Position numbers and translations under genes: made by a program. DNA of 64,000 nucleotides from Haloactinopolyspora alba (lineage in GTDB: Bacteria; Actinomycetota; Actinomycetes; Jiangellales; Jiangellaceae), in assembly GCF_003014555.1 (NCBI RefSeq), contig NZ_PYGE01000001.1:372001-436000 (forward strand). The letters run 5' to 3'. The notes under the pieces are model-generated. The model had not been told where the DNA came from and did not search any database. It saw only the letters and a program-made list of their open reading frames with translations. Below, in pieces: positions 20,002 through 54,817 of the stretch (the stretch's first letter is position 1; each line of letters begins with the position of its first letter).

Positions 20002-22350
20002 TCAGCGCCAATGACCCGGCATCGCCGGCGCGTCCAGACGGTGCACCTCGGCGCGCACCGGCTGCGTGCCGGACGCGTGCGCCTCGCCGGCCACGACGGT
20101 CACAGTGGTGACGGTCCCGTCGAAACCGGTCAGCTCGGTCCGCACGTCACCGGCGCCGGCCACGTGCAGCGTCCACGCCCGCCCGACCAGGTCGTCGGTT
20201 CGCCGGACGTCCGCGTCGACGTCGACCCGCGGGATCACCGCACCGGCGCGGACGAGGACGGGCATCCGCTCCAGCGCGACGTCGACCGTGTGGAAGCCCG
20301 GCCCGGTCCACGCGTCGCCGGTCAGCAGATCCACCCACCGTCCGTCCGGGACGTAGAACCGCCTGCGGACCGGCCCCGGGCCGTCGTCGAAGACCGGCAC
20401 CACCAGGAGGTCGGCGCCGAGCAGGAACTCGTCGTCCAGGCCCGGGCACACCGGGTCGTCGGGAAACTCCAGCGCCAACGGCCGCAGCATCGGCAGACCA
20501 CGCGCGGCGGACTCCGTCGCGCTGTTCCACAGGTACGGCAGCAACGAGTACCGCAACCGGACCCAGTCCCGCGCGATCGACAGGGCACGCTCCCCGAACT
20601 CCCAGGGCTCGCGTGGGCGGAGCCCGTGCGCACGCATCAGCGGCGAGAGCGCGCCCAGCTGGGTCCAGCGCACGTACAGCTCCGGGGTCAGCTCCGGGCC
20701 GTAGAAGCCGCCGATGTCGTGGCTCCAGAACCCGGGAGCGCTCAGCGCGTAGGACAGCCCGCCCCGCACCGTGGCCTGCATCCCCGCCACAGTGGACTCG
20801 GCGTCGCCCGCCCACTGACCCGGGTAGCGGTGCGACCCGGCCCACCCGCTGCGCCCCCAGACCAGCGGGTTGCGCCCGGTGCGGCTGCCGATCCGCTCGC
20901 TGACGGCGGCGTTGTACCGCAGCGGGTAGAGGTTGTGCGCGTGGTTGGCCGGGGTGCCGTCGGCCGGGGCGACGTCGTCGGGCAGTCCTTCGCCGAAGTC
21001 GGTCTTGAACACCGCGACGCCGTCGTCGAGGAACTCGTCATGCATCCGCTGCCACCACACCCGCGCGTCGGCGTTCGTGAAGTCGACGAGGGCGCGGTGC
21101 CGTCCGTCCGGCGTCGGCGTGCCGGCGACGTGCGCGACGCCGCCGTCCGCCCGGGTGACCAGGTATCCGTGCTCTTCGGCCTCCCGGTACCGCGGCGACA
21201 CCGGGTCCAGGTAGGGAACCTCCCAGACCGACAGCCGGCAGCCGAGGTCCTCCAGGGCCGTCACCAGCTCGCGCCGCTCACCGAACCGGTCGGTGTTCCA
21301 CACGAAGTCGGTGTTCAACCGGTCGACCACCAGCCAGTCCGGGTCCAGGTGCAGCACGTCGCACGGCACCCGGTGTTCGCGCATCCCGCGGGCGACGGCC
21401 TCCATCTCCTGCCGGGAGTGGTAGCGGCACCGGCCCATCCAGTACCCGAACGCCCACAGCGGCGGTACCGGAGCCCGGCCCGTCAACCCGGTGTAGGCGG
21501 CCAGCCGGTCCTTCGGATCGGGCCCTGCCAGCACGTACAGGTCGATCGCCTCGTCCGCGACGCGCAGGCTCAGCACCGACGGGCGCACGTGGCCGACGTC
21601 GGCGTTGACCTCGGCGCCGGTGTTGAACAGTCCGGTGTAACCGGCCGTGGAGTGCCACACCGGCACCGGCTTGTAGGCCATCCCGGTTCCGGTGCCGAGC
21701 GCGTCGTCGACCCGGAGACGCAGCTGCTGGCCGTTCTTGACCAGCCGGCCGAACTGCTCACCGAACCCCAGCACGTCCTCGTCGGTGTCCAGCTCCAGCT
21801 GCAGCGTCGTCGTACCCGGCTCGGCCAGCACCGGCGGCGCCATCGGGAACCCCGCGACCTGGCGCAGCCGCTCGGCGGTGCGCAGCACCGTCCGCCCGGC
21901 ACCGTCCAGCACGCGCACCGCGAACGGGGAGCGCCGCACGCGGACCCGGATGTCCGCACCCGCGACGGTCACCCAGGTGTCGTCGTCGGTCAGCTCGGGT
22001 TCGACACCACCGGGCCGCGTCACGATGCCGAGCCAGCTCGCGTCCTCGTGGTGCACCCGGGCCCGCGGCCGCGCGATCACGATCCGCGCCACGTCCGGCG
22101 CCGCGAGAGAGACGGCGACCTCGAACCGCTCGGGGGTGACCCCGGGCAGCTCCAGGTGCGCCGGCAGGTTGGGCATGGTGACCTCCACGCCCTGGTCGGT
22201 CAGCGCCTCCCCGGTGAGCCACCCGGGCGTCCCGGGCAGCTCCACGGCGGGCAGCGCCGCCACCCCGAACCGCACGACATCGCCCACCAGGGTCACGTCG
22301 GTCACGTGCCGCAGCACGTACGCGCCGCCGTCTCCGGCCGGTCCGTTCAT
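20002..22350 (-). CDS. GH31 family alpha-glycosidase, YicI (alpha-xylosidase)-like
   Basis: 782 residues from ATG 22350, which overlaps the permease stop (ATGA). The N-terminal beta-sandwich has EDVLGFGEQFGRLVKNGQ. The catalytic barrel has nucleophile Asp451 in FKTDFGEG and acid/base Asp516 in GQWAGDAEST. The FGYWMGR and HLDPDWL stretches are close to E. coli YicI, an alpha-xylosidase. There is no signal peptide, so the enzyme acts inside on imported oligosaccharide. The sulfonate-binding Arg-x-x-Trp of sulfoquinovosidase YihQ is not seen (the aligned stretch is DFVW), so that activity is not supported by residues. It is the last gene of the sugar operon at 20.0-28.8 kb. Confidence 0.93.
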   Translation of the reverse strand: MNGPAGDGGAYVLRHVTDVTLVGDVVRFGVAALPAVELPGTPGWLTGEALTDQGVEVTMPNLPAHLELPGVTPERFEVAVSLAAPDVARIVIARPRARVHHEDASWLGIVTRPGGVEPELTDDDTWVTVAGADIRVRVRRSPFAVRVLDGAGRTVLRTAERLRQVAGFPMAPPVLAEPGTTTLQLELDTDEDVLGFGEQFGRLVKNGQQLRLRVDDALGTGTGMAYKPVPVWHSTAGYTGLFNTGAEVNADVGHVRPSVLSLRVADEAIDLYVLAGPDPKDRLAAYTGLTGRAPVPPLWAFGYWMGRCRYHSRQEMEAVARGMREHRVPCDVLHLDPDWLVVDRLNTDFVWNTDRFGERRELVTALEDLGCRLSVWEVPYLDPVSPRYREAEEHGYLVTRADGGVAHVAGTPTPDGRHRALVDFTNADARVWWQRMHDEFLDDGVAVFKTDFGEGLPDDVAPADGTPANHAHNLYPLRYNAAVSERIGSRTGRNPLVWGRSGWAGSHRYPGQWAGDAESTVAGMQATVRGGLSYALSAPGFWSHDIGGFYGPELTPELYVRWTQLGALSPLMRAHGLRPREPWEFGERALSIARDWVRLRYSLLPYLWNSATESAARGLPMLRPLALEFPDDPVCPGLDDEFLLGADLLVVPVFDDGPGPVRRRFYVPDGRWVDLLTGDAWTGPGFHTVDVALERMPVLVRAGAVIPRVDVDADVRRTDDLVGRAWTLHVAGAGDVRTELTGFDGTVTTVTVVAGEAHASGTQPVRAEVHRLDAPAMPGHWR

Positions 22351-23162
22351 CCCTTGACCGCTCCGGCGGTGATGCCCGCCACGAAGTAGCGCTGCAGCAG
22401 CACGTACGTGATCGCCATCGGCAGCGAGGCGATGACGACGCCGGTGAACAGCAGCGGATAGTCGGTGAGGAACTGCCCCTGGAAGTCCAGCAGCGCCAGC
22501 GGAATCGTCTTCTTGCTGTCCGAGCTGATGAACAGCAGCGGATAGAGCAGGTCGTTCCACTGGATGACGAACAGGAAGATGGCCGTGGCCGCCAGCGACG
22601 GCTTCGACATCGGCAGCACGATCGACCAGTACGTGCGCAGTGGTCCGGCGCCGTCCAGGGAGCTCGCCTCGTAGGCCTCCCGCGGCAGCGTCTTCATGAA
22701 TCCGCCCAGGATGAACACCGCGACCGGCAGGCCGACGACCACGTTGATGATCACCAGCCCGATCCGGCTGTCCAGCAGTCCCAGCTGGTTGAACAGGGCG
22801 TACTGCGGAATCATGTTGGCCTGCGCGGGCACCGTCATGCCGAGCACCAGGAACCCGAAGATCAGCCAGCCGGGCCAGCCGGGGATCCGCGCGGTCGCGT
22901 AGGCGGCCAGGCTGCCGATGAACAGCGTCAGAGCCACCGAGCTGCAGGTCACCAGCACGCTGTTCAGGAAGGCCTGGGACAGGTTCTGCTCGTTGAGCAC
23001 GGTGTCGTAGTTGTCGAACGAGATCGACGACGGCAGCCCGAACGGTGAGTCGAACAGCTCGGGTGTCGTCTTGAACGACCCGAAGAACACGACGGCGAGC
23101 GGCACGAGGATGATGACGGCATAGATCGTCAGCACGACGCCGCGGGTGAGGTTGAACCGCAT
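22347..23162 (-). CDS. Carbohydrate ABC transporter permease (MalG type)
   Basis: 271 residues, six membrane helices. The ATPase-contact EAA loop appears as EAYEASSLDGAGPLRTYWSIVLPMSKP. The C-terminus LLQRYFVAGITAGAVKG is characteristic of sugar permeases of the CUT1 family. It works with the MalF-type permease upstream and the binding protein at 24.2-25.5 kb. No ATPase gene lies in this operon, so a shared MsmK/UgpC-type ATPase must serve it. Confidence 0.93.
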   Translation of the reverse strand: MRFNLTRGVVLTIYAVIILVPLAVVFFGSFKTTPELFDSPFGLPSSISFDNYDTVLNEQNLSQAFLNSVLVTCSSVALTLFIGSLAAYATARIPGWPGWLIFGFLVLGMTVPAQANMIPQYALFNQLGLLDSRIGLVIINVVVGLPVAVFILGGFMKTLPREAYEASSLDGAGPLRTYWSIVLPMSKPSLAATAIFLFVIQWNDLLYPLLFISSDSKKTIPLALLDFQGQFLTDYPLLFTGVVIASLPMAITYVLLQRYFVAGITAGAVKG

Positions 23163-23174
23163 CAGCCGACCTCC

Positions 23175-24140
23175 TCAGACGTCCTTCTGGGTGAACTTCA
23201 GGATCCGGCGTTGTGCCAGGACGACCGCCGCGATGAACGCCATGAAGATCAGCGACTCGGCCGCGGCGTAGCCGAACTCGGAGTTGGCGAAGCCGGTGTA
23301 GATCCGGGTGGAGAGGATGTCCATGCTGTACCGCGGCGGGTTCCCGCTCAGGCCGAGGATGAGGTCGAAGGCCTTGAACGACTGGATCGTGGTGTAGGCC
23401 ACGACGATGGCCGTCGCCGGGGCGATCATCGGCCAGGTGATCGCGGTGAACTGCTTCCACTTGCCGGCGCCGTCGATCTCGGCGACCTCGTACAGCTCGG
23501 CGGGCACCGACTGCAGCCCGGCGATGAAGATCACCATCATCTGGCCGGCGTGGAACCAGATCTGGGTGATCGCCACCCAGTAGATCGCCGCCGTGTCGTT
23601 ACCCAGGTACGACGAGGTGAACTGTTCGAGCCCGACGAACTCGAGCACGCGGTTCGCCAGGCCGAAGTTCGGGTCGTAGATGAACTTCCAGGTGTAGGCG
23701 ACCGACACCGACGACAGCACGGTCGGGAAGAAGAACAGCCCACGCAGCAGCGTCGACGCGGTCGTGTTCTTCACCAGGAAGATCGCCAGGCCCAGCGCGA
23801 AGATCGTCTGGAAGACCACGACGACGAGCATGAACTTCAGGTTGTTCGTCAGCGCGTTCATGAACAGGTCGTCGCCGGTCAGGATCCGTTCGAAGTTGCC
23901 GAGCCCGACGTTGTCGTAGTCCGCGCTGAACCCGTCCCAGTTGGTTCCCGAGTACTGCACGGCCTGCAGCGTCGGCATGGCGAAGAACACGACGTAGATC
24001 GCCAGTGCCGGCAACGGGAACAGGTACAGGGCCGGGTGGACGCGGCCCGCGCGGCGACGTCCACGGCGCCCGCTCGTCCGGCCGTGGCCGGGCGAGCGGG
24101 CGGACTCCGTGGACCACTCCGGCTCGGTGGTGGTTGGCAC
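23175..24140 (-). CDS. Carbohydrate ABC transporter permease (MalF type)
   Basis: 321 residues. A basic N-terminal tail of about 45 residues precedes six helices. The EAA loop is ELYEVAEIDGAGKWKQFTAITWPMIAP. It is a CUT1-family inner-membrane subunit that pairs with the MalG-type protein 12 bp downstream. Confidence 0.92.
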   Translation of the reverse strand: MPTTTEPEWSTESARSPGHGRTSGRRGRRRAGRVHPALYLFPLPALAIYVVFFAMPTLQAVQYSGTNWDGFSADYDNVGLGNFERILTGDDLFMNALTNNLKFMLVVVVFQTIFALGLAIFLVKNTTASTLLRGLFFFPTVLSSVSVAYTWKFIYDPNFGLANRVLEFVGLEQFTSSYLGNDTAAIYWVAITQIWFHAGQMMVIFIAGLQSVPAELYEVAEIDGAGKWKQFTAITWPMIAPATAIVVAYTTIQSFKAFDLILGLSGNPPRYSMDILSTRIYTGFANSEFGYAAAESLIFMAFIAAVVLAQRRILKFTQKDV

Positions 24141-24169
24141 GCGAACTCCTCGTGTCCGTGCGAGGGGGG

Positions 24170-25489
24170 TCAGCTGCCGATGCGCTGGTCGATGATCCCC
24201 TGCGCCTTCTCCGCCGCCTGCTCCGGCGAGTCACCGCCGACGACGTCGATGCAGGCCTGCTCGGCGGCGTTGCGGATGTCCAGGTCGGTGAACTGGAACC
24301 GGGGAGCCAGCAACGTCTCCTTGCTCAGCCAGTCCGAGGTCGCGGCCAGATCCTCGTTGTCGTAGGTGACGTCGGCCACGGTCAGGTGCTGAACCGTGCC
24401 GTTGGCGTAGGTGCTGGCCGCTTCGGTCTCGCTGAGGAAACGCAGCAGCTCCAGAGCGCCGGCCTGGTTGTCGGACGCGGTGTTCACCCCGAGGATGAAC
24501 GTCGCGTTGCGGATCCCCACGTACTTACGCTCGTCGGCCGAGACGGTGACCGGCGGCGCCATCCCCACCGGGAACTGCGCGCCGAGTTCACGCACGGCGG
24601 TGATGTGGAACGAGCCGGTCACCAGCAGCGCCGCATCCCCCTGCGCGAACAGCTGCTGGGCCGGCTCGACGGCGGTGCCGGTGGCGTTCGGCTGGAAGTA
24701 CGGACGCAGTTCGGCGTACTGCGCGAGGGTGGTGAGGAACCAGTCGTCGGTGCACGCGTACTCGCCGGACTCGATCTTCGCGCACATGTCGTCCGACGGC
24801 GCGTTGTTCATGACCATGCAGTTGAACAGGTGACCGGCGTTGCCGATCTCGCCGCCGGGCCACGCCATCGGCACCAGGCCCGCGGCCACCACGTCCTCGC
24901 ACATGGCCAGGAACGAGTCCCAGTCCGGCGGCGGCTCGGTGACGCCGACGGACTCGAGGATGTCGAGGTTGGACACCGGCTGGTTGAACACGAGCTGGTA
25001 CGGCAGGCCGTACTGGGTGCCGTCGCTCTGGCCGACGTCGATGAGCGCGGGGTCGTAGCGCTCGACCACGTCGGTGCCGGACAGGTCCGCGTAGAGCCCG
25101 GCATCGACCATGTCGACGAACTGGGCGCCCCGGAACGCGACGAACAGGTCGCCGACGTTTCCGCTGCGGATGCGCTGCAGCGCGTTGGACTGGTAGTCGT
25201 TCGACGGGGAGATGTCCTGCGACACGCTCGCGTCCGGGTACTCCTCGCTGAACCGGGCGAACATCTTCTCGAGCACCGCCTGATCCTCGGCGCGCCAGTG
25301 CGCGAAGGAGATCTCACCCTCGACCGGACCGTCGGTGGGTAGCGCCTCGCCGCCTCCGCCGCCTTGGTCGCCCCCTCCGCCCGATCCCGGGCCGGCGCAG
25401 GCGGCCGGTACGGCCACGAGCCCGCTCGCGGCGAACATCTGCAGGATTCGGCGTCGGGTGTACATGGTGCCGTGGGACTTCTGGTTCAT
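24170..25489 (-). CDS. Extracellular sugar-binding lipoprotein of ABC importer
   Basis: 439 residues from ATG 25489, which follows AAGGAG with good spacing. A twin-arginine-like leader (TRRRILQMFAASG) ends at Cys31, the probable lipid-attachment site, followed by a Gly-rich linker. The body (ISFAHWRAEDQAVLEKMFARFSEEYPDASV and the C-terminal LLRFLSETEAAS) fits bacterial solute-binding protein family 1. Ligand unknown; the context suggests a glycoside hydrolysed by the GH31 enzyme in the same operon. Confidence 0.92.
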   Translation of the reverse strand: MNQKSHGTMYTRRRILQMFAASGLVAVPAACAGPGSGGGGDQGGGGGEALPTDGPVEGEISFAHWRAEDQAVLEKMFARFSEEYPDASVSQDISPSNDYQSNALQRIRSGNVGDLFVAFRGAQFVDMVDAGLYADLSGTDVVERYDPALIDVGQSDGTQYGLPYQLVFNQPVSNLDILESVGVTEPPPDWDSFLAMCEDVVAAGLVPMAWPGGEIGNAGHLFNCMVMNNAPSDDMCAKIESGEYACTDDWFLTTLAQYAELRPYFQPNATGTAVEPAQQLFAQGDAALLVTGSFHITAVRELGAQFPVGMAPPVTVSADERKYVGIRNATFILGVNTASDNQAGALELLRFLSETEAASTYANGTVQHLTVADVTYDNEDLAATSDWLSKETLLAPRFQFTDLDIRNAAEQACIDVVGGDSPEQAAEKAQGIIDQRIGS

Positions 25490-25524
25490 CGCAGCGCTCC
25501 TTCGCGACAGTGGTGCGCTCTCGC

Positions 25525-26973
25525 TCACCACTCGATGACAGGGATGTCGAGGAGGTCGGCGGCCGCACGTAGCTGCGGGCGGACGTCGGTCCATGCCAGC
25601 ACGGTGTGGTGGGGGAACCCGCCGGTGACGAGACCGTGCACGAACGCGCCGGCGTCGCCGTCCAGGCGGACGTCGGCGGTGTTTCCTTGGAATCGGTTGT
25701 CCGCGGGCAGCGACTCGCCGGAGGCGATCAGCAGCCGCAGGCCGGTGCCGCCGTCGTTGCCGGTGGCGCCGGTGTTTCCGCCGGCGGCCGCCACGTCCTC
25801 CGTCAGCCGTGCCATCACCACCGGCCCGGTGCGCAGTGCGAAGTTGCCCGCGACACCGATCTTCCGGTTGCAGTGCACGGACTGCTCCGCCCGTGCGGGG
25901 TCCGCGGCGAGTTCGGTGGCCGCCGAGCCGCAGTGCCACAGCCGGACGACACCGGCGTCGGCGTCCAGGTCGACGGTGTCGACGAGATAGGTCGTCCCGG
26001 CACCCAGTGCCTGCAGCAGCAGCATCGTGACCGCGCCGTACACGTCCCGCTCGCACTGGGTGGGCACGCCGTCGTCGGCGAGCCGGGACAGTGAGGAGCA
26101 GGGGCACACGCCGAGCTGGGTGGGGAACTCCGGCCAGCACCGTACGGCGACCGCCGACAGTTCCCGTTGCGCCGACACGTCGCGCAGCGCGGAGGTCACG
26201 GCGGCGTGCCTGCGCACCTCACCGGGGTCGATCGCCGACAGCCCCGGCCGATCGGCGCTGACCGCGGCGAACTCCTCCTGCTGCGCCGACGGCGACACGT
26301 CGCGTACCCGCTCGAACGCCTCGTCGATGCCGATGGCGTCGACACCGAGCCCGAACAGCTCCTCGAGCAGCTGCGGGTCGTACTCACAGGGGGTGAAGCC
26401 GGGAGGTGCGTCACCGACAGCGCCGATCGTCCGGCCGCGCAGCCGGTCCAGCGCCTCCCGCGCGTGGGCCTCGTCGCCGCGTTCCCGCGACACCGTGGGC
26501 AGTTCGGGAGCGGGCGGCAGCTCGCCGTCCAGCGCTGCCGCCAGCGCGGTGCGCACCCCGTCCTCGTGCGGGTCGCCGTAGAGCAGGCGCACCTGCCCAC
26601 CCGATCGCACCAGCGCGTGCCCGTACAGGTTCGCCCCGCACAGCGAGTTCAGCCACAGCCGGTCACCCACCTCGCCCGGCTCGCGGAACGCCCACAGCAG
26701 GACCGGGCGGCCGAGGTCGCCGTAGAGCCGCAGGGCGGGGTTGGCGTCGGAGAAGGACGCACACACGTTGACGACCAGGTCGGCCGAGCCGTCGACGTAC
26801 TCCGCGGCCTTCTCCGCGTCGTCCGGCGTGAGCACGAGCTGCTCGGGGCCGGTGACCTCGGCTCCGAGTTCGGCCACCAGCTCACGGGCGGCCCGGGCCC
26901 GTTGCTCCGCGGCCTCGACGACGAAGGTCGGCCGGGCGGTGGCGATGACGACGACGCGTGTCACGGCGCTCAC
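25525..26973 (-). CDS. L-fucose/L-arabinose isomerase-family protein
   Basis: 482 residues from GTG 26973, overlapping the aldolase stop by 4 nt. The C-terminal half has family landmarks: RCWPEFPTQLGVCPCSSLSRL, a CERDVYGAVTMLLLQALG segment and LWHCGSAATEL, which carry the predicted Glu, Asp and His metal ligands. The enzymes interconvert aldoses and ketoses with a divalent metal. Operon order (kinase, aldolase, isomerase) makes it the first step after hydrolysis. Length is shorter than true FucI (about 590), so the sugar need not be fucose. Members of this broad family have been reported as sulfoquinovose isomerases in some sulfoglycolysis variants (from memory). Confidence 0.85.
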   Translation of the reverse strand: MSAVTRVVVIATARPTFVVEAAEQRARAARELVAELGAEVTGPEQLVLTPDDAEKAAEYVDGSADLVVNVCASFSDANPALRLYGDLGRPVLLWAFREPGEVGDRLWLNSLCGANLYGHALVRSGGQVRLLYGDPHEDGVRTALAAALDGELPPAPELPTVSRERGDEAHAREALDRLRGRTIGAVGDAPPGFTPCEYDPQLLEELFGLGVDAIGIDEAFERVRDVSPSAQQEEFAAVSADRPGLSAIDPGEVRRHAAVTSALRDVSAQRELSAVAVRCWPEFPTQLGVCPCSSLSRLADDGVPTQCERDVYGAVTMLLLQALGAGTTYLVDTVDLDADAGVVRLWHCGSAATELAADPARAEQSVHCNRKIGVAGNFALRTGPVVMARLTEDVAAAGGNTGATGNDGGTGLRLLIASGESLPADNRFQGNTADVRLDGDAGAFVHGLVTGGFPHHTVLAWTDVRPQLRAAADLLDIPVIEW

Positions 26974-27860
26974 CTGCCGACCGTCGAGTCGACGACGTCG
27001 CACAGCGCGCGCAGCCTCGGCACCGCGGACTCGTGCAGGTCCCGCTCGAGGTCCGGCGCTCCGATGCACGACGCCCACACCGCGCGCCCCGCGAGGAAGC
27101 CCGCGGCACCCTCGCGGCAGGCCAGTTCCACCGCCCTCGGGAAGTCGTCCTGCTCGACGCCGCTGGACAGCACCACCCACGGCCCGGCGACCGATTCGGT
27201 GATGCGCGCACACCGACGGCGCACCGAGTCCGGGTCGCCGCGCCCGTGCAGCGGAACCTCCGCCTTGTACAGGTCCGCCCCGAGCGAGCCGAGCTCGGAC
27301 GCGGCGGCGAGCACTCCGTCGTCCCAGTCCCACTCTCCGCCGGACACGGGAGGGCGGGAGACGGGTTCGACGATGCTGATCAGGCCGGCCCGGCGGCACA
27401 TGTCGACGAACTCCTCGACCATCGCGATCCGGTGAGCCGGCGCCCCGTCCGGCCGGTGGAGGATCAGCAGCTTGAGCGCGACCGCGCCCTGCTCCTTCAC
27501 CGCACGAGGGTCGACGTCCCGGTCGATGCTGGTGCGCCCCACCAGCTCACCGTGGTCGGGCTCGAAGTGGTCGGCGGCGGCGATGAGCCCGCACCCGGGC
27601 GCCAACGCGCCCTCGTCGACCACCGGGTCGAGGCCGAACTGCCGATCGACGAGCACGGCCGAGGCGTGCGGGCTGAGGATCCGGGCGGCGGCCACCTTGA
27701 ACCGGGTCAGCTGCGCGTCCGGCACGGGCGCGTCCTGGTGCCCGGCGAACATCGCCCGCAGCGCCTCGCGCTGGTCGACGGCCAGCATGGCGTAGGCGCC
27801 GGACGGACGCCGGAGGGCGGACAGGTCCGGCGTCGTTCCCGCTTCCGGTGCCGTGCTCAT
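26970..27860 (-). CDS. Class I ketose-1-phosphate aldolase, YihT/LacD-like
   Basis: 296 residues. It resembles E. coli YihT (sulfofructose-1-phosphate aldolase) along its whole length: GAYAMLAVDQREALRAMF, LSPHASAVLVDRQFG, IVEPVSRPP, then GADLYKAEVP with the predicted Schiff-base Lys199, and GFLAGRAVWAS with phosphate-binding Arg259. LacD tagatose-bisphosphate aldolases share the fold but differ more in these segments. The reaction expected is cleavage of a ketose 1-phosphate to DHAP and an aldehyde. It overlaps both neighbours by 4 nt. The aldehyde product depends on the unidentified sugar. Confidence 0.88.
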   Translation of the reverse strand: MSTAPEAGTTPDLSALRRPSGAYAMLAVDQREALRAMFAGHQDAPVPDAQLTRFKVAAARILSPHASAVLVDRQFGLDPVVDEGALAPGCGLIAAADHFEPDHGELVGRTSIDRDVDPRAVKEQGAVALKLLILHRPDGAPAHRIAMVEEFVDMCRRAGLISIVEPVSRPPVSGGEWDWDDGVLAAASELGSLGADLYKAEVPLHGRGDPDSVRRRCARITESVAGPWVVLSSGVEQDDFPRAVELACREGAAGFLAGRAVWASCIGAPDLERDLHESAVPRLRALCDVVDSTVGR

Positions 27861-28828
27861 CGAGTCTCCTCTGTCGGTGCTGCGGTCAGGACGTCCACCG
27901 GCCGGCCCGCGGAGGTGACGGCGGATCCGAGGACGGCGCGAACGTCGGCGTCGGTGGGGATGGCGGATCGACCGTCGACTCCGCGGCACGACAGCGCGGC
28001 CGCGACGTTCGCGTACCCGGTGGCCTCCGGTGGCGTCATGCCGTGGGCCAGCCCGGCGAGCAGGGCCCCGTGGAAGACGTCGCCGGCGCCGAGAGTGCTG
28101 ACCACCTCGACGTCGTGCCCGGGCACCGTGTGCCGCGCGCCCTGCGAGTCGGCGACGACGGACCCCGCGGCCCCGTCCGTCGCGACGACCGTCCCCGCAC
28201 CTTCGGCCAGCGCCGACGTCAGCAGCTGCGGCACCGGAGCGTCCCCGTAGCGCAGGACGAGCGCGTCCACGGTCGGCACGTACAGGTCCACCCCGGCCGC
28301 GGTGAAACCGAGGATCGGGTTGCCGCCGTCGACCGACAACCGGGGGCGGCGCCGGGCGGAGAACCGGGTGAGCTGGTCGTGGATGGCGGACCAGCCAAGA
28401 TGGTCCGCGTGGACCCATTCGGCCGCGGCGACGAGCTGGTCCGCGCGCCCGTCGGCGAGGATCCGCAGCGGCGGCACCACACGGGTGTGGATTGCCCGGG
28501 TGCCGCGGCCGGCGTCGGCCACGATGACGCTCGCGCCGGAACGCTGACCGGCGACGACCTCGACGGCCGACACGTCCACGTCCTCCTGGCGCAGGGCGGC
28601 GAGGATGCGTTCGCCCTCGCCGTCGTCGCCGACGCTGCCGACGATCGCGGACGGGATCCCGAGCCGAGCCGCCGCCACCGCCGCCGTCGCCGCGGGACCT
28701 CCGCCGGCGTAGGTGACGTCCCGGGCCACCTGGCGCGAGTCCGGCTCGGGAAACGTGTCGACCAGAGCGATCGCGTCGAGCGTCGCCGCACCGACGAAGA
28801 CCAGCTTCGGTGTTGTCACCATCCGCAC
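27857..28828 (-). CDS. PfkB-family ketose kinase, YihV-like
   Basis: 323 residues; ATG 28822 is an alternative start. The N-terminal GGGPAATAAVAAARLG is nearly the same as in YihV (sulfofructose kinase), and the active-site GAGDVFHGALLAGLA has the catalytic Asp. A generic PfkB sugar kinase otherwise. It is the first gene of a seven-gene operon and phosphorylates the ketose made by the isomerase for the aldolase. Residues proposed for sulfonate binding in YihV (Lys, Asn, Arg by my recall) are not obviously kept, so the substrate may be a different ketose. Confidence 0.9.
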   Translation of the reverse strand: MRMVTTPKLVFVGAATLDAIALVDTFPEPDSRQVARDVTYAGGGPAATAAVAAARLGIPSAIVGSVGDDGEGERILAALRQEDVDVSAVEVVAGQRSGASVIVADAGRGTRAIHTRVVPPLRILADGRADQLVAAAEWVHADHLGWSAIHDQLTRFSARRRPRLSVDGGNPILGFTAAGVDLYVPTVDALVLRYGDAPVPQLLTSALAEGAGTVVATDGAAGSVVADSQGARHTVPGHDVEVVSTLGAGDVFHGALLAGLAHGMTPPEATGYANVAAALSCRGVDGRSAIPTDADVRAVLGSAVTSAGRPVDVLTAAPTEETR

Positions 28829-28876
28829 TCCTGAGCCGCTCGGCGCGATTCGTAGTGAGGGAAACTAAACACACAA

Positions 28877-28892
28877 TGTTGGAAAGTCAACA
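28877..28892. promoter_or_regulatory. Divergent promoter and inverted repeat between kinase and DeoR genes
   Basis: TGTTG...CAACA (28877-28881, 28888-28892) overlaps a minus-strand -35 box TTGACT (complement of 28885-28890). A TAGTTT -10 follows after 17 bp. It is a likely operator for the adjacent DeoR-family regulator controlling the kinase-to-GH31 operon. Confidence 0.45.
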
Positions 28893-28931
28893 GTTACACT
28901 CGGGTCAGCAGGACAACAGGCAGGGGTGAAC

Positions 28932-29723
28932 ATGAGCGGTGTCGGCTCGTCCCGCGAAAACGCTGCAGCGCAGCGCAGGGCTGAGATCATGCGGTTGCTG
29001 CACGTCCACGGTTTCCAGTCCGTGACGCACCTGACCGAGTTGCTCGACGTCTCGGACATGACGGTCCGCCGGGACCTCAAGCGCCTCGCCGACGCCGGTG
29101 AGCTGCGTGTGGTGCACGGCGGGGCCAGCCTGCTGCACGCCACGCTGCGAACCGCCGACTTCACCAGCAGGGGCGCCCAGGAGCGCACCGCCAAACGCCG
29201 GATCGCCCAGCGCGCGGCCGCATTGATCGAGCCGGACGCGACCGTGGCGATCGACGCCGGCACCACCACGTTCGAACTGGCGGTGACGCTGCCGACCGAC
29301 TTCCGCGGCTGCGTGATCAGCCACTCCGTCCCGGTGCTGCAACACATGCTGAACGTGCCGAAGGCCACGGTGATCGGCCTGGGCGGCGAACTGCTGGCCG
29401 ACAGCCAGGCGTTCGTCGGTTCACTGGCCACCCAGGCGCTGGCCGGGCTGGGCGCCGACGTCGTCTTCCTCGGCGCCGCGGCGATCGGTACCAACGATCT
29501 GTTCGTCGCGACCGGTCACGAACGACCGACCAAGCAGGCGCTGATCGGATGCGCCGAACGTGTCGTCCTGCTCGCCGATCACTCCAAGTTCGACACCACC
29601 GCCCCGGTCCGGCTGGGACCGCTGGACGACGTCGACACGCTGGTGACCGACCGGCCGCTCACCCCCGAACTGGCCGAGGCGTTCGACGTCGCCGGCGTGA
29701 CCGTGCTGACCGCGGAGGAATGA
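28932..29723 (+). CDS. DeoR-family transcriptional regulator
   Basis: 263 residues from ATG 28932 (an in-frame GTG is 6 nt upstream). The N-terminal winged helix is RRAEIMRLLHVHGFQSVTHLTELLDVSDMTVRRDLKRLADAGELRVVHGGA, the DeoR signature. The C-terminal DeoRC sugar-phosphate sensor domain has IDAGTTTFELA and LLADHSKF. It is divergent from the kinase/aldolase/isomerase operon and coupled (ATGA) to the GH116 gene. It most likely represses both units until a phosphorylated ketose accumulates; YihW/CsqR of the E. coli sulfoquinovose cluster belongs to the same family. Confidence 0.93.
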   Translation: MSGVGSSRENAAAQRRAEIMRLLHVHGFQSVTHLTELLDVSDMTVRRDLKRLADAGELRVVHGGASLLHATLRTADFTSRGAQERTAKRRIAQRAAALIEPDATVAIDAGTTTFELAVTLPTDFRGCVISHSVPVLQHMLNVPKATVIGLGGELLADSQAFVGSLATQALAGLGADVVFLGAAAIGTNDLFVATGHERPTKQALIGCAERVVLLADHSKFDTTAPVRLGPLDDVDTLVTDRPLTPELAEAFDVAGVTVLTAEE

Positions 29724-32065
29724 CCGTGCTCGACGACCGATGGGAACGCGCCGCGACGTACGGCTTCACGACGACGGGCGTGCCACCGTCGTCGTTCGTC
29801 GCCAAGCCGCGCAGCCACGACGACGGCCCCGCCCATGGGATGTTCCTGGGCCCGATCGGCGGCCCCGCGTTCTCCCGCGACCTGACCGGCCGGTTCAGCC
29901 GGTGGCACCTGCAGCCGGGGACGCATCTGCTCGCCGACGTCGACGCGGCCTTCCTCGCCGTCCACTGGGAGGCCGGCGGCGAGCACCGGCACGTGCTGCT
30001 CCGGGCGGACGAGGTGGGCCGGCACGAGACGGCGGTGCTGTACCCGGTCGCGCACGAACGCTTCTCCGGGGCGGATCTGCCGTTCGTGCTCACGCTGAGC
30101 TCTTTCTCGCCGGTGATACCGGGCCTCGAGGAGGAGTCCGGCCTGCCGGTTGTGCTGTTCGACGTCCGGGTCGAGGCGGCGGCCGGCACGTCTCGCCTGC
30201 CCGCTCTGGACGTCGCGCTGTTCTGGCCGAACCTGAACGGGTGGAACCCCTCGATGCTCACCTCCGACGACCGGGGCGACCGGGCCTGGCCGGGTCACCA
30301 CCACGCCGGCAACACGAACACCCCCGTCGACGACGGGCTCGCCGGCGCGTCCGTGCTGCAGGGCCGCGAGACGCCCGGACCGCTGAACCCCGGGCAGCAG
30401 GTGTGCCTCAGCGTGACCGGCGACGCTGACGAGTTCACCCGGCAGGTGCAGTTCAAGACCGACCAGAACGCGACCGGGGTGCCCGAGAGCCGGCAGGTGT
30501 TCACCCTCGGCGCGGTGCGGCACGGGTTCGCGACGACCGGCCGGCTCGGAATCACCCCGGACGGAAGCTGGTCCGCGCACTGGCACGAGCCCGTGGGCTC
30601 GGCCGTGGCCGGGCATGTCCGCGCCGGCCGCGACTCGGCCGCGGTGCGGTTCGCCGTCGCCTTCGACTGGCCGGCGGTCCGCTTCGGGGCCGGACGGACA
30701 TGGCGTCGTCACTATGCGGCGGGCGACGAGCGGCCGAGCGCGGTGGAGCTGGCCACCAGGGCTCACCAGCACGGCGACGAGTGGCTCGGCGCGATCGACG
30801 AGTGGCACCGGCGGACCCTGGGCCGGGTCACCGCCGCCGGCTGGTCAGCACCGGTCGCCGGATGCGTCGTGAACGAGCTCGGCCTCGTGTCGGCACTGGG
30901 CAGCGCATGGGTCGACGGCACCTTCGCCGGGCACGAGCCGCCGGACGCGGTACTGCGAGGCGACGAGCACGTCGCCGTCCTGGAGGGCTTCGACGAGGGG
31001 TACTTCTACTACAACACCAGCGACCTGTGGCACTACGCCTTCCCCGCGTTCACGCTGCACTGGCCCCGGCTGGCCGAGACGGTGTTCGCCGACCTCGGCG
31101 ACGCGCTGTCCGGGGAGGACGCGACGGTCCGGCCGGTGTACCGGGTCGGCGAGCACCGCCGGCTCCTCCGAGCGAACCGGCTGCCGCACGACCTGGGCAG
31201 CCCGATGGAGGATCCGTTCGTCCGGCTCAACGGTTACGTGATGCGCGACGACCCGAACACCTGGCGTGACTCCGCGCCGGCGCATGTCCTGGCCCGGCTG
31301 TTGCACGCGAAGCTGCAGGGAAAGCCGGTGAGCGAGCCGGCGTGGCACCGGCTGCGCGCCGCGGCGGAAGCGGCCGCCGCCCAGGTGACCGACGGCAGCG
31401 GCGTGCCACGGCACGACGAGTTCGGCGACTCGACCTGGGACAACCTCGCGCTCAGCGGACACTCCACCTACGCCACGGCCCTGTACACGGGCATGTGGTC
31501 GGTCCTCGCCCAGCAGGCCGGCGCCCGCGGCGAGGACCCCACGGCGTACGAGGCCCGGCGCGATGCCGCGGCCGACGTGCTCGGGCAACTGTGGAACGGG
31601 GAGTTCTTCCGGGCCGCGTCCGAGGGCAAGTACGTCGAGGCGGTCATGCCCGACTCGGCGTGGGGACTGTTCTACGCCGACCTGTGCGGCGCGACGACCG
31701 GCGTCGACCCGGAGCGGATGCGCGCTCACCTGCACGCGGCGTACGAGATCTGCCACCTGGGATACGACGGCGGCCGCGTCGGCCCGCTGCTCATCGGGGA
31801 GCGCGGACTCTCGGCGTACGAACGCGACGGCGGCGAGGAGCTGCAGGTCAACGAGGTGCTCATCGGTTCGGCGTGGATGTTCGCCGCGATGCTGCGACAC
31901 TACGGGCTCGCCGACGACGCGGACCGGGTCGCCGCCAGTCTGCGCGAGGTTCTCTACGGCGGCAGCGGGCTGCAGTTCCGCACCCCTGCGGCCATCGACC
32001 GGGCCGGCCGGTTCCGGGCACCGCTCAACATGCGCCCGCTCGCGATCTCGTGGCTCGCCGTCTGA
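29720..32065 (+). CDS. GH116 family glycoside hydrolase (beta-glucosidase/glucosylceramidase type)
   Basis: 781 residues from ATG 29720. The N-terminal GH116 domain carries MFLGPIGGPAFSRDLTGRFSRWHLQPG. The catalytic (alpha/alpha)6 domain carries VLEGFDEGYFYYNTSDLWHYAFPAF, with the predicted nucleophile Glu, then LPHDLGSP and EFGDSTWDNLALSGHSTYATALYTGMW, with the predicted acid Asp. Known GH116 enzymes hydrolyse beta-glucosides, beta-xylosides or glucosylceramide. No signal peptide is present, so it is intracellular. Translationally coupled to the DeoR gene; with the GH31 enzyme it gives the cell alpha and beta cleavage of the imported glycoside. Confidence 0.88.
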   Translation: MTVLDDRWERAATYGFTTTGVPPSSFVAKPRSHDDGPAHGMFLGPIGGPAFSRDLTGRFSRWHLQPGTHLLADVDAAFLAVHWEAGGEHRHVLLRADEVGRHETAVLYPVAHERFSGADLPFVLTLSSFSPVIPGLEEESGLPVVLFDVRVEAAAGTSRLPALDVALFWPNLNGWNPSMLTSDDRGDRAWPGHHHAGNTNTPVDDGLAGASVLQGRETPGPLNPGQQVCLSVTGDADEFTRQVQFKTDQNATGVPESRQVFTLGAVRHGFATTGRLGITPDGSWSAHWHEPVGSAVAGHVRAGRDSAAVRFAVAFDWPAVRFGAGRTWRRHYAAGDERPSAVELATRAHQHGDEWLGAIDEWHRRTLGRVTAAGWSAPVAGCVVNELGLVSALGSAWVDGTFAGHEPPDAVLRGDEHVAVLEGFDEGYFYYNTSDLWHYAFPAFTLHWPRLAETVFADLGDALSGEDATVRPVYRVGEHRRLLRANRLPHDLGSPMEDPFVRLNGYVMRDDPNTWRDSAPAHVLARLLHAKLQGKPVSEPAWHRLRAAAEAAAAQVTDGSGVPRHDEFGDSTWDNLALSGHSTYATALYTGMWSVLAQQAGARGEDPTAYEARRDAAADVLGQLWNGEFFRAASEGKYVEAVMPDSAWGLFYADLCGATTGVDPERMRAHLHAAYEICHLGYDGGRVGPLLIGERGLSAYERDGGEELQVNEVLIGSAWMFAAMLRHYGLADDADRVAASLREVLYGGSGLQFRTPAAIDRAGRFRAPLNMRPLAISWLAV

Positions 32066-32279: not shown

Positions 32280-33404
32280 TCAGAGACCGAGCATGTCGGC
32301 GAGTTCGTCAGCCGAAGGGCGGCTACGTTCCGGCCGGTCGATCACGACGTCGTCCAGGTCGGTGTCGAGCATCCACGCCAGCGTCCCAGGGGTGATCTCG
32401 CCGTTTGCGATTCGCTTGCCGTGGGCTTCCTGGAGGGAAAGCGGGAAACGGCGGGCCGCGGCCGCGTTCATGCGCTCGGTGATCGGGTCGAACAGCATCG
32501 TGAACGGGCCCCGCTTGACCGGCTTCTCCCCAAGGTCGCCGCCATGGCGCCGCAGCAGCCGCTGCGTGGAACCGCTCAACAGGCCGCGGGTTTCCTCACC
32601 GACCGGGATGCGGAGTGCATCCAGCCGAGTGAGCAGCGCCCCGGTCGACACTCCGGACTCCCAGACGAAGAGGGCGAGGTCGCGGGGGCCGATCGTCTCC
32701 CAGTCGGTCCCGGACAGGTCACTCTGCAGCATCAGCAGGTCCGCCGCGAAACGGTTCGCGGCACCCTCGCGGGCGTCGTTGCCGCGCGGGTTGTCCAGGT
32801 CGTGGTGCCCCAAGGCCAGATGCCCCAACTCGTGGGCCAGAGAGAAGTTGGAACGGAACCAGTTGGCGTGTGCGGCCAGCACGATCACATGCCGCCCACC
32901 GATCGTCACCGAGTAGTCCGTGCTCAGCCCCGGCACCCGAACGACATCCACGTCGAGCGCGGCCTCCAGCCGGTCCGCGAACTCCCTCACGAAACCGTCA
33001 GCAAGGACCTCCCGGACGCCTTCCACCGTGCCCGGAAGCGCCTTCGAGGGATGGTCCGCATCCGGGTACGCCTGCCGGTAGGCGTGAGCCACGGCGGACA
33101 GCACGTCCTCGTCCTGCTCGAACCCGGGGACCCCCCGGATGCCCGAGTAGTGGTCGAACTCGTGCCGCGCAGCCACCCGCACCCGCTGCGGGCTCTCCTG
33201 CCCGGTGATGAGCCAGTGCAGGTCCACGTCCAGGATTTCGGCGATCTTCGCGAGTTCGATCGACGCGAACCCGCGCTGCCCGTTGAGTGCTCGCGACAGC
33301 GCGTCCGCGGGCATCTCCACCTGCTCCGCGAGACTGCGTTGCGTCATGTCGGACGGCATAGCGTCGCGGACGCGCACGCCGATAGCGACCAACCCGTCAT
33401 CCAT
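32280..33404 (-). CDS. XRE-type regulator fused to ImmA/IrrE metallopeptidase
   Basis: 374 residues from ATG 33404. An N-terminal Cro/C1 helix-turn-helix (residues about 20-66, MTQRSLAEQVEMPADALSRALNGQRGF) is followed by an ImmA/IrrE domain with zinc motif HELGH at 191-195. Such proteins act as antitoxin-like regulators that cleave or release a repressor; COG2856 members are found with phage, mobile elements and stress responses. A 15-bp palindrome 20 bp upstream is a likely self-operator. It and its remnant partner form a small cassette between two carbohydrate operons. Confidence 0.9.
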   Translation of the reverse strand: MDDGLVAIGVRVRDAMPSDMTQRSLAEQVEMPADALSRALNGQRGFASIELAKIAEILDVDLHWLITGQESPQRVRVAARHEFDHYSGIRGVPGFEQDEDVLSAVAHAYRQAYPDADHPSKALPGTVEGVREVLADGFVREFADRLEAALDVDVVRVPGLSTDYSVTIGGRHVIVLAAHANWFRSNFSLAHELGHLALGHHDLDNPRGNDAREGAANRFAADLLMLQSDLSGTDWETIGPRDLALFVWESGVSTGALLTRLDALRIPVGEETRGLLSGSTQRLLRRHGGDLGEKPVKRGPFTMLFDPITERMNAAAARRFPLSLQEAHGKRIANGEITPGTLAWMLDTDLDDVVIDRPERSRPSADELADMLGL

Positions 33405-33575: not shown

Positions 33576-33887
33576 ATGGTGAGCATGCCACAGCAGCCCC
33601 CAGATTTCCTCGCCCACCTGGACGGTGACTCCGTCGCGGTCGCCGTGCGTACGGTACCGGCGGGCCCCGCCGAGGGCGCCTATCTCGACTCGCCCGGCAC
33701 CATCGACGTCACCGTCGCCACCGAGGTGCCGCTCGGGCACAAGATCGCCCTCACGGACGTCCCGGCCGGTCAAGACGTCATCGAATACGGCGTCCGGGTC
33801 GGTGTCGCCAGCGCCGACATCACGAAGGGCGATTACGTGCACGTTCACAACCTGAGGAGTGCTCGATGGCAGAGCAGCGTCGCCTGA
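33576..33887 (+). CDS. UxaA-family lyase/dehydratase, small (SAF) subunit
   Basis: 103 residues. The SAF-domain pattern is clear: FLAHLDGDSVAVAV, then EVPLGHKIALTDVPAGQDVIEYG, and the closing DYVHVHNLRSARW. Two-subunit members include altronate dehydratase-like proteins and SuyA of (2R)-sulfolactate sulfo-lyase. It overlaps the large subunit by 22 nt. Start alternatives are ATG 33576 or 33585. First gene of a five- or six-gene operon under a FadR-type operator. Confidence 0.88.
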   Translation: MVSMPQQPPDFLAHLDGDSVAVAVRTVPAGPAEGAYLDSPGTIDVTVATEVPLGHKIALTDVPAGQDVIEYGVRVGVASADITKGDYVHVHNLRSARWQSSVA

Positions 33888-35029
33888 ACGGCTACCGGCG
33901 GGAGAACGGCGCGGTGGGCATCCGCAACTACACCGTCGTCATCCCCGTCGACGACCTGTCCAACGCCGCCGCCGAGGCGGTCGCGAACATCGTGCCCGGT
34001 GTGCTGGCGCTGCCGCACGCCTACGGCCGGCTGCAGTTCGGCCCGGATCTCGACCTGACGTTCCGCACCCTGATCGGCACCGGCTGCAACCCGAACGTCG
34101 CCTCCGTGGTCGTCATTGGCATCGAGCCGAACTGGACCGGGCGGGTCGTCGAGGGCATCGCCGCCAGCGGCACCCGCGTCGCGGGGTTCTCCATCGAGGG
34201 CAACGGCGACCTGCGCACCATCGAGGCCGCCGCGCGCACCGCCGCGCAGTTCCTGCAGGACGACTCCGAGCGCACCCGCGAGCCGGTCGAGCCCGGCGAG
34301 ATCATGATGTCGATCAAGTGCGGCGAGTCGGACACCACCAGCGGCCTCGGATCGTGCCCCACCACGGCCGAGGCGGTCGACCGGTGGGTCGACGCGGGCG
34401 GCACGGTCCTGTTCGGCGAGACGACCGAGCTGACCGGCGGCGAGCACCTGATCGCCGAGCGCTGCGTGAACGACGAGGTGCGCAAGCGGTTCCAGTCGCT
34501 GTACGACAACTACATCGACGTCGTCGAACGCTCCGGGGCCAACCTGCTCGGCTCGCAGCCGACCCAGGGCAACATCAGCGGCGGGCTGTCCACCATCGAG
34601 GAGAAGGCGCTGGGCAACATCGCCAAGACCGGGACCAAACCGGTCGTCGGTGCGCTGGGCGCGGCCGAGGAGCCGCGGTCGGGTCCGGGGCTGTACTTCA
34701 TGGACACCTCGTCCGCGGCCGCCGAGTGCATCACGCTGATGGCCGCGGCCGGCGCCGCGATCCACCTGTTCCCCACCGGCCAGGGCAACGTGATCGGCAA
34801 CCCGATCGAGCCCGTGGTGAAGCTGACCGCGAACCCGCACACCGCCGAGACGATGACCGAGCACATCGACCTCGACGTGTCCGGCCTGCTGCGGCGCGAG
34901 TACGACCTCACCGCCGCCGGCGACCAGCTGATGGACGTCATCGGCCGCACGGTCAACGGCCGGCGCACCGGCGCGGAGGTGATGGGTCACCGCGAGTACG
35001 TCCTGACCAAGCTCTACCCGAGCGCATGA
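33866..35029 (+). CDS. UxaA-family lyase/dehydratase, large subunit
   Basis: 387 residues from ATG 33866 with GAGGAG upstream. Family marks: GYRRENGAVGIRNYTVVIPVDDLSN, IGTGCNPNVASVVVIGIEP, SIKCGESDTTSGLGSCPTTAEAVD (metal- and substrate-binding Cys/Gly loop), and FPTGQGNVIGNPIEPVVKLTANP. The family eliminates water (altronate, galactarate) or sulfite (sulfolactate) from 2-hydroxy acids, usually with iron. The actual substrate cannot be read from sequence by eye. Neighbouring ALDH and two hydroxyacid dehydrogenases would fit either sugar-acid or sulfolactate catabolism. Confidence 0.9.
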   Translation: MAEQRRLNGYRRENGAVGIRNYTVVIPVDDLSNAAAEAVANIVPGVLALPHAYGRLQFGPDLDLTFRTLIGTGCNPNVASVVVIGIEPNWTGRVVEGIAASGTRVAGFSIEGNGDLRTIEAAARTAAQFLQDDSERTREPVEPGEIMMSIKCGESDTTSGLGSCPTTAEAVDRWVDAGGTVLFGETTELTGGEHLIAERCVNDEVRKRFQSLYDNYIDVVERSGANLLGSQPTQGNISGGLSTIEEKALGNIAKTGTKPVVGALGAAEEPRSGPGLYFMDTSSAAAECITLMAAAGAAIHLFPTGQGNVIGNPIEPVVKLTANPHTAETMTEHIDLDVSGLLRREYDLTAAGDQLMDVIGRTVNGRRTGAEVMGHREYVLTKLYPSA

Positions 35030-35046
35030 CCCGTCGGGAGGCAATC

Positions 35047-38556: not shown

Positions 38557-39242
38557 CCGAGCGCATCGTCGGGCAGGTGGAGCAGCTGATCCTCGACCAG
38601 AGCCTGCGCCCGGGCGACCGGCTGCCGTCCGAGCGGGAGATGGCGACGCTGCTGGCGGTGAGCCGGCCGTCCATGCGTGAGGCGGTGCGGATCCTGCAGG
38701 CCAACGGCCGGCTCGAGGTCCGGCACGGCCAGGGGGTGTTCGTCACCGCGCCGAGCTCGGAGCGGGCGTTGCGGGAGCGGCTGGCCTCCGAGGAGATCAC
38801 GCTGAACGAGCTGTACGCGATGCGCGAGGTGCTCGAGGTTCCCGCCGGCGGCTGGGCGGCCGAGAAGGCCGCCGACACCAGGCTGAGTGAGCTGCGCAGC
38901 GTTCTGGACCGGATGTCCGCGATCCTGGACGCCGACGAGCCCGACTTCGACGAGCTCGGCCGGCTGGACGCGGAGTTCCACATGACCATCGCCATCGGCG
39001 CCGGCAACCGGTTCTTGCAGCAGACGTCGCACGTGCTGTACGACATCCTCCGGTCCGGTATGGAGACTACGCTGACGATTCCCGGGCGCACGACCGTCGC
39101 CCAGGACGACCACGAACGGATCTGGTCCGCGCTCACCGCACGCGACCCCGCCGCGACCCGGCGAGCCGTGCGCGCACACATCCGCGGTGCACACGCCGCC
39201 GCCATCCGGCGGGTGGAGCAACAGCAACGCGCCGGCGGGTAG
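38523..39242 (+). CDS. FadR-subfamily GntR transcriptional regulator (first paralogue)
   Basis: 239 residues from ATG 38523 with AGGAGGAAGC upstream. N-terminal winged helix: GDRLPSEREMATLLAVSRPSMREAVRILQANGRLEVRHGQGVFV. The C-terminal FCD ligand domain has MREVLEVPAGGWAAEKA, an EFHMTIAIGAGNRF metal-site segment and HVLYDILRSGMETTL. It is strikingly similar to the regulator at 58.6-59.3 kb in both domains. It is the last gene of the UxaA operon, which has a GAGGTCAGACC operator at its promoter, so it is probably autoregulated. Confidence 0.93.
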   Translation: MWRPVTQQGNLTERIVGQVEQLILDQSLRPGDRLPSEREMATLLAVSRPSMREAVRILQANGRLEVRHGQGVFVTAPSSERALRERLASEEITLNELYAMREVLEVPAGGWAAEKAADTRLSELRSVLDRMSAILDADEPDFDELGRLDAEFHMTIAIGAGNRFLQQTSHVLYDILRSGMETTLTIPGRTTVAQDDHERIWSALTARDPAATRRAVRAHIRGAHAAAIRRVEQQQRAGG

Positions 39243-42525: not shown

Positions 42526-42526
42526 C

Positions 42527-54782: not shown

Positions 54783-54817
54783 GGAACTCCCTTTCGCTCG
54801 GTCGGGTCGGATCTGCC

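Follow-up and report, generated by a model that had tools for sequence, protein, structure and literature searches.

Which sugar is degraded by the genes at positions 20002-32065 of a 64,000-nucleotide stretch of the Haloactinopolyspora alba genome (contig NZ_PYGE01000001.1, positions 372,001 to 436,000; this whole stretch is referred to below as the window), and what becomes of the sulfonate that its degradation might release? A preliminary description of this DNA had recognized an aldolase and a kinase similar to the sulfoquinovose enzymes YihT and YihV, and had proposed either a divergent sulfoglycolysis cluster or the same chemistry acting on another hexose. Sulfoquinovose, one of the sulfonated sugars of plants and algae, is among the largest pools of organic sulfur. 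Most of the bacteria described so far degrade it only by half and leave the cleavage of the C-S bond to others.

We propose that the locus is a three-module sulfosugar catabolic island, a reading to which we assign a probability of about 75%. Gene content, protein families, gene order and conservation were observed in the window and in related genomes. From homology and genomic context we infer every substrate and the flux between the modules, as follows. The importer of module 1 would take up a sulfosugar, most likely sulfoquinovose, or its glycoside, from which a glycosidase of family GH31 probably frees the sugar. An SftI-type isomerase would then produce a 6-sulfoketose, a YihV-like kinase its 1-phosphate, and a YihT-like aldolase would split this phosphate into dihydroxyacetone phosphate and sulfolactaldehyde. 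In module 2, an aldehyde dehydrogenase would oxidize sulfolactaldehyde to sulfolactate, an SlcC/ComC-like pair of dehydrogenases would invert the latter via sulfopyruvate, and SuyAB would cleave sulfolactate to pyruvate and sulfite. Module 3 would import another sulfosugar, for which sulfofucose is the most likely candidate, and degrade it by an Entner-Doudoroff (ED) route ending in sulfolactaldehyde, which would feed module 2. All of the genes named in the preliminary description were found in their places between 20002 and 32065. Its gene set stopped short, and the downstream operons of sulfolactate and sulfofucose-type genes were missed; the sulfolactate genes lie 3 kb downstream, on the plus strand.

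Core enzymes of module 1

The class I aldolase (DeoC/LacD-type; 26970-27860, minus strand) scored 275-282 bits against the solved YihT sulfofructose-1-phosphate aldolases in a sequence search of the PDB (281.7 bits to 7ag1). Both K193, which we take to be the catalytic lysine of YihT, and R253 are kept, and they were invariant across the 47 aligned aldolase rows. The segment GFLAGRAVWAS, highlighted in the preliminary description, is identical in 7ag1 and one residue off in two other YihT proteins. The DUF2090 protein 8tnf gave 55 bits, and identity as a tagatose-bisphosphate aldolase was rejected (at most 54 bits, against 282 bits to YihT). At the level of sequence, at which the pockets were compared, the aldolase thus favours YihT over the tagatose-bisphosphate aldolases; pocket residues matching tagatose or fructose 1-phosphate enzymes had been named beforehand as a result that would speak against the proposal.

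The PfkB-family kinase (27857-28822, minus strand) is YihV-like by a modest margin, the best solved relative in the PDB being YihV (7ag6, 99 bits) and the next a ribokinase (79 bits); its stretch GGGPAATAAVAAARLG was confirmed to be identical to YihV. The cluster thus combines the class I aldolase and, less distinctly, the kinase of the sulfoglycolytic Embden-Meyerhof-Parnas (sulfo-EMP) pathway. A YihS-type isomerase (PF07221) was matched nowhere in the window, and since the cluster lacks this enzyme, module 1 would represent a hybrid, not a canonical, sulfo-EMP. Elsewhere in the same genome (contig C16, locus L148), a YihS-like protein (40% identity to E. coli YihS) is encoded beside a short-chain dehydrogenase/reductase (SDR) and permeases, in a stretch without YihV- or YihT-like matches.

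The isomerase of module 1 (25525-26973, minus strand) had been described as belonging to a different family, and this proved correct: its sole NCBIfam match was the sulfoquinovose isomerase SftI (NF048012, 263 bits, E 5e-78). Searching the PDB by sequence gave no relative. Its AlphaFold model (predicted local distance difference test score, pLDDT, 87.7; predicted template modelling score, pTM, 0.90) matched L-arabinose and L-fucose isomerases in its C-terminal part (about 295 residues, Z 26.7-29.9; for 1fui Z 29.2, root-mean-square deviation 2.8, 295 aligned); flavodoxin-like rows for the N-terminal domain in the VIA-align list were unrelated and were set aside. E308, D332, H347 and H456 were invariant in 51/51 homologues, and the spacing of 24 between the Glu and the Asp presumably resembles that of the metal ligands of fucose isomerase. 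The protein is thus a member of the SftI/SqvD sequence family with a modelled fucose-isomerase fold, and sulfoquinovose isomerase activity is predicted for it.

Scanning of named genomes with five isomerases yielded 30 loci, 21 of them actinobacterial and 9 from Chloroflexi. Presence of other genes was counted within no more than 10 kb on either side above fixed bit scores, and several of these loci end at contig ends. Among the 21 actinobacterial loci, the aldolase was found in 20, the importer in 18, the kinase in 17 and the DeoR-type regulator in 17. In the window, the importer consists of two sugar ATP-binding cassette (ABC) permeases (22347-23162 and 23175-24140, minus strand; NCBIfam) and a solute-binding lipoprotein (24170-25489, minus strand; Pfam SBP), which in the PDB resembled only distant sugar binders, none of them named as sulfosugar-binding. 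The regulator (28926-29723, plus strand) was assigned by Pfam to the DeoR type, in agreement with the preliminary description, and shows 29% identity to CsqR.

Module 2: predicted conversion of sulfolactaldehyde to sulfite

Module 2 opens with a small SAF-domain protein (33576-33887, plus strand) and a UxaA-type protein (33866-35029, plus strand; Pfam GD_AH), homologues of which adjoin each other in related loci. Such a split SAF subunit next to a UxaA-type subunit, in an organosulfonate context, is a predicted sulfolactate sulfolyase SuyA/SuyB of the two-gene form. The SuyB-like protein is 57% identical to the product of a gene of the Paracoccus versutus plasmid pTAV3, itself located in an hps/suy-like cluster with a sulfite oxidase. 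Galactarate dehydratase, also considered for this protein, was rejected (125 bits to 6u7l, versus 57-90% identity to SuyB-like proteins encoded next to organosulfonate genes).

The next gene (35026-36492, plus strand) encodes a GabD/SlaB-like candidate sulfolactaldehyde dehydrogenase of the succinate-semialdehyde dehydrogenase family, whose homologues occur near the isomerase in 14 of the 21 named actinobacterial loci. As read from the window sequence, it carries the motifs WNF...R (present in 28/28 homologues) and R...C, residues of which have been proposed to bind the sulfonate in RlGabD (PMC10599462). These motifs do not discriminate, because succinate-semialdehyde dehydrogenases share such arginines. 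In a Propionibacterium metagenome-assembled genome (MAG; L090), a YihU-like reductase replaces the dehydrogenase, as would be expected if sulfolactaldehyde is the product. The remark that a sulfolactaldehyde reductase is missing holds for the whole window, which gave no YihU match, but it overlooked this dehydrogenase, which lies beyond the genes then considered.

The module continues on the plus strand with a 2-hydroxyacid dehydrogenase (36539-37501; Pfam), a regular SuyAB neighbour resembling the (S)-sulfolactate dehydrogenase SlcC, and an Ldh_2-family protein (37498-38556; Pfam) resembling the (R)-sulfolactate dehydrogenase ComC, followed by a GntR/FCD regulator (38523-39242; Pfam).

Module 3: sulfofucose-type genes

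Downstream, all on the plus strand, lie a second importer and candidate ED genes. The gene order solute-binding protein (39381-40727), permease (40724-41635), permease (41632-42525), SDR (42518-43366; PF13561), UgpC-type ABC ATPase (43363-44454), dehydratase (44447-45625) is that of Sinorhizobium mexicanum ITTG R7 (L103), with 51-65% identity (53%, 61%, 62%, 51%, 63% and 65%, respectively). This strain is among the sulfofucolytic candidates listed in PMC12421959, and SuyA, SuyB, SlcC-like and ComC-like genes are located near its matching operon. The SDR is a candidate sulfofucose dehydrogenase (SfcH-like), and the galactonate-dehydratase-type enzyme a candidate sulfogalactonate dehydratase (SfcF-like). 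A DapA-family aldolase (45619-46515; DHDPS, PF00701) is a candidate for the SfcE step and an SMP-30 lactonase (46505-47374; SGL, PF08450) for SfcD. The SDR, the PF02746/PF13378-type dehydratase, the PF08450 lactonase and an importer in the order of a sulfofucolytic candidate are thus all present. The closest plasmid-encoded relatives of the dehydratase were those of S. mexicanum ITTG R7 (65%) and Arthrobacter sp. YA7-1 (60%), the next reaching about 50%; among the matches listed, galactonate dehydratases mostly showed about 50% identity or less.

The Arthrobacter plasmid (L104) carries, within about 14 kb, an SDR, dehydratase, DapA aldolase, lactonase, kinase and YihT-like aldolase together with an aldehyde dehydrogenase, a GH188 protein and a TauE-type exporter. 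As it joins both kinds of sugar module, these evidently co-occur elsewhere in a different arrangement. This plasmid was typed as conjugative, so the sulfosugar trait may move between strains.

Distribution of the modules and the sugar of module 1

SuyB relatives (E≤1e-100) were detected in 23 of 393 genomes of the class, and in 14 of these 23 regions the isomerase was also present: in the window, in genome G401 and in 12 of the 17 genomes of one family (f97). It was not found in the regions of G396, G397, G415 and G439 (4/23), and of the other five f97 regions one (L151) is without the isomerase and four are truncated by contig ends. The f97 genomes are small (1.3-1.9 Mb), with a G+C content of 44-49% in the regions concerned (L146, L147, L149, L151-L164), values that might suit freshwater acI bacteria. 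All 12 f97 regions with the isomerase contain the kinase, importer, SuyA, SuyB and both sulfolactate dehydrogenase homologues, with a GntR gene in the run, and 10 of the 12 also the aldolase; an aldehyde dehydrogenase of the window type was seen in none of these 12.

The remaining gene of the f97 run encodes a Gfo/Idh/MocA protein scoring 352 bits to the sulfoquinovosidase ArSqgA (8QC3), a member of GH188. The sulfonate, hydroxyl and catalytic residues of this family (taken, like the structure code, from PMC10755693) appear to be kept in the eight proteins compared, as matched by motif position. That GH188 occurs in the f97 runs, and also in two named Arthrobacter loci, argues most strongly for sulfoquinovose as the substrate of the isomerase, kinase and aldolase set.

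SuyA, SuyB and both dehydrogenases also stand beside module 1 in Actinophytocola (L075) and in G401. Versions of the SuyAB and module-3 set were found in G415, G397 and the same-genus genome G396, whose region ends inside the dehydratase. The isomerase of G397 is identical to that of locus L072, and its aldehyde dehydrogenase is encoded together with SuyAB on a different contig, an arrangement which fits the window, where this gene likewise sits in the SuyAB operon. In the isomerase tree, the window groups with Phytoactinopolyspora halophila and Pseudonocardia. A search of 396 genomes of the phylum gave 31 isomerase matches (E≤1e-20), of which only the window and two others reached at least 66% identity. 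In Chloroflexi, SuyB was present in 8 of the 9 loci, and a transaldolase is adjacent in the one that was examined; these loci are of the extended transaldolase (sulfo-TAL) type already described (PMC9594981).

The H. alba genome contains a second YihT-like aldolase (59%; L056, C3:228500-248400), accompanied by a DeoR regulator, a PfkA-type kinase (PF00365), an aldehyde dehydrogenase (44%), an enolase-superfamily protein and an ABC importer. Its position near this second aldolase hints that a PfkA-type kinase can replace the YihV-like one. Kinases with 68-70% identity to it were also found close to the aldolase of L060, L061 and L064.

Glycosidases

The GH31 enzyme (20002-22350, minus strand; Pfam GH31) is closest to YicI-type alpha-xylosidases: its nearest NCBIfam model was alpha-xylosidase (457 bits, compared with 219 bits for YihQ), and its nearest solved relatives were YicI-type enzymes and 5f7c. 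Aligned to YihQ, it retains the catalytic Asp pair. A role in alpha-xyloside use, raised in the preliminary description, agrees with this proximity, but a separate YicI-like enzyme (57% to YicI) is encoded in the same genome. GH31 was found in 15 of the 21 named actinobacterial loci, and GH188 also occurs in two named Arthrobacter loci without GH31 (L079, L080). Since GH31 recurs in these operons and GH188 is found in two loci that lack it, GH31 may do a job related to sulfosugar release. In L076 (16850-17959) and L091 (16880-17962), an M24-peptidase-family protein is encoded between GH31 and the aldehyde dehydrogenase, and gaps of similar size occur in other loci. The additional GH116 enzyme (29720-32065, plus strand) was verified by its Pfam N-terminal and catalytic domains; it recurs in 3 of the 21 named loci (L072, L073, L078).

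Gene arrangement and neighbouring genes

On the minus strand of 20002-32065, the kinase gene is followed by those for the aldolase, the isomerase, the solute-binding protein, the two permeases and GH31, while DeoR and GH116 are encoded on the plus strand. Within each strand block of 20002-32065 neighbouring genes overlap or lie less than 40 bases apart, for which reason we regard the blocks as operons. Overlaps of 4 bases join kinase/aldolase, aldolase/isomerase, permease/GH31, DeoR/GH116 and suyB/aldehyde dehydrogenase. Further downstream (52707-56691, minus strand), a GH42 beta-galactosidase and ABC-permease-like open frames form a separate sugar cluster.

Alternative explanations

Several observations weigh against the proposed island. 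The score of the isomerase is well below the NF048012 cut-off of 700 bits, as are those of three relatives from Chloroflexi and other members of the phylum (276-494 bits), and although NF040650 (L-sulfolactate dehydrogenase) is the best NCBIfam match of the ComC-like protein, 168 bits is under its cut-off. The module 3 aldolase belongs to PF00701, not to PF03328 as SfcE does. At the positions of Q288, R301, W304 and Y508, which we take to be the sulfonate-site residues of YihQ, sequence alignment placed D/R/T/F in GH31. Three of the four are thus absent, and the equivalence of R301 is uncertain (R in 18/27 homologues; the count covered GH31 rows longer than 550 residues and YihQ-like rows longer than 500). 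As Q288, W304 and Y508 are not kept, GH31 is not a classical sulfoquinovosidase. No GH188 SqgA homologue was found in the window, and the best protein in the same genome shows 28% identity. G397 and Pseudonocardia sp. MH-G8 have the isomerase and aldolase and no good YihV-like kinase genome-wide (best 52 and 58 bits), which indicates that the kinase step is not universal. An XRE/M78 (IrrE-like) regulator gene with a helix-turn-helix domain (32280-33404), on the strand opposite to module 2, splits it from module 1. Finally, of the 21 named actinobacterial loci only one has SuyA/SuyB next to the isomerase, and in most of these bacteria the pathway may therefore end at sulfolactate.

Module 1 might instead serve sulfofucose, the C4 epimer of sulfoquinovose, its isomerase yielding sulfotagatose, its kinase sulfotagatose 1-phosphate, and its aldolase cleaving the latter. 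Such a route would agree with a Nocardiopsaceae MAG (L088), in which isomerase, kinase and aldolase accompany a 64% identical dehydratase and a module-3 type importer but no module-1 importer, with the Arthrobacter plasmid, where kinase and aldolase follow ED genes without an isomerase, and with the YihV/YihT relatives in the sulfofucose cluster of Paracoccus wurundjeri. We nevertheless consider it unlikely: the f97 operons with the same three enzymes carry the GH188 sulfoquinovosidase, and most of the named loci are without module 3 (its dehydratase lies near the isomerase in 1 of 21). An EMP-like sulfofucose route was considered for Paracoccus, for which no evidence was found (PMC12421959). 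That modules 2 and 3 are merely chance neighbours of module 1 seems quite improbable, since SuyAB is found next to the isomerase module in loci of differing layout (G401, L075, f97, Chloroflexi). Moreover, the isomerase operons of the window and of the other GH116 loci (L072, L073, L078) contain no aldehyde dehydrogenase, which would leave module 1 of the window dependent on the one linked to SuyAB. The cases that point to independence are G397, with the isomerase and SuyAB/dehydratase clusters on different contigs, and G415 and G396, with the latter cluster and no isomerase. An ordinary pathway for tagatose, fructose 1-phosphate or an alpha-xyloside that merely resembles sulfoglycolysis could account for the alpha-xylosidase-like GH31 and for a kinase of the broad PfkB family, but hardly for the YihT-specific aldolase match, the SftI-family isomerase and the sulfolactaldehyde or sulfolactate genes often nearby; we regard it as very improbable.

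The sulfosugar island therefore remains our preferred reading, and of the options raised in the preliminary description it is the divergent sulfoglycolysis cluster that is favoured, by the YihT-like aldolase, the SftI-family isomerase and the orthologous operons with sulfolactaldehyde dehydrogenase, GH188 and SuyAB. More tentatively, and with considerable doubt about the picture as a whole, one actinobacterium might mineralize both sulfoquinovose (by hybrid sulfo-EMP) and sulfofucose (by the ED route) via one shared sulfolactate-to-sulfite module, with GH31 and GH116 as new sulfoglycosidases, one possibly the sulfofucosidase still to be identified, and with the sulfoquinovose half and SuyAB as a core trait of an actinobacterial family that has small genomes and may live in fresh water.

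Comparison with known systems

Module 1 shares the YihV-family kinase, the YihT-family class I aldolase and the DeoR-type regulator with the sulfo-EMP of E. coli (yih) and Arthrobacter, and with the latter also the dehydrogenase in place of the reductase (PMC8873060). It differs from this system in having an SftI-type isomerase instead of YihS, adjacent SuyAB and sulfolactate dehydrogenases, and a GH31 not of the YihQ type. The same mixing of isomerase, kinase and aldolase types is known from hybrid sulfo-EMP/EMP2 clusters, including those of Actinobacteria (PMC10599462, PMC9594981, PMC13372026). The module is thus less distinct than the preliminary description had supposed, since actinobacterial clusters of this kind are in print (PMC10599462). 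Unlike in the window, SuyAB is not named in an actinobacterial hybrid cluster in the accessible parts of these three papers. The extended sulfo-TAL of Thermotogae and Chloroflexi (PMC9594981) combines a related isomerase with SuyAB, and so places C-S cleavage in one organism, but uses a transaldolase where the window has a kinase and an aldolase. With the sulfofucose ED pathway of P. wurundjeri (PMC12421959), the window shares the SDR, the PF02746/PF13378-type dehydratase, the SMP-30 lactonase, an ABC importer, SlcC, ComC, SuyA and SuyB; it differs in being actinobacterial and in its DapA-family aldolase and GabD-like dehydrogenase. The sulfolactaldehyde dehydrogenase step of that pathway could not be assigned (PMC12421959), and the aldehyde dehydrogenase at 35026-36492 is a candidate for it.

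Splitting of a sulfosugar and C-S cleavage in one bacterium has been called unusual (PMC12421959). From the window locus and the operons of f97, we predict that single actinobacteria turn sulfosugars over completely to sulfite, and GH31 and GH116 are put forward as candidate sulfoglycosidases of a new type. In the searchable literature (main texts, with partial journal coverage), no report was found in which an actinobacterial hybrid sulfo-EMP operon is combined with SuyAB, none that describes actinobacterial sulfofucose-type genes, and none of a single locus with both. Already published are the actinobacterial hybrid sulfo-EMP (PMC10599462), sulfo-TAL extended by SuyAB (PMC9594981) and, from Proteobacteria, a sulfofucose pathway that includes SuyAB (PMC12421959); what is new, within that literature, is the combination of hybrid sulfo-EMP, SuyAB and sulfofucose-type genes in one actinobacterial locus.

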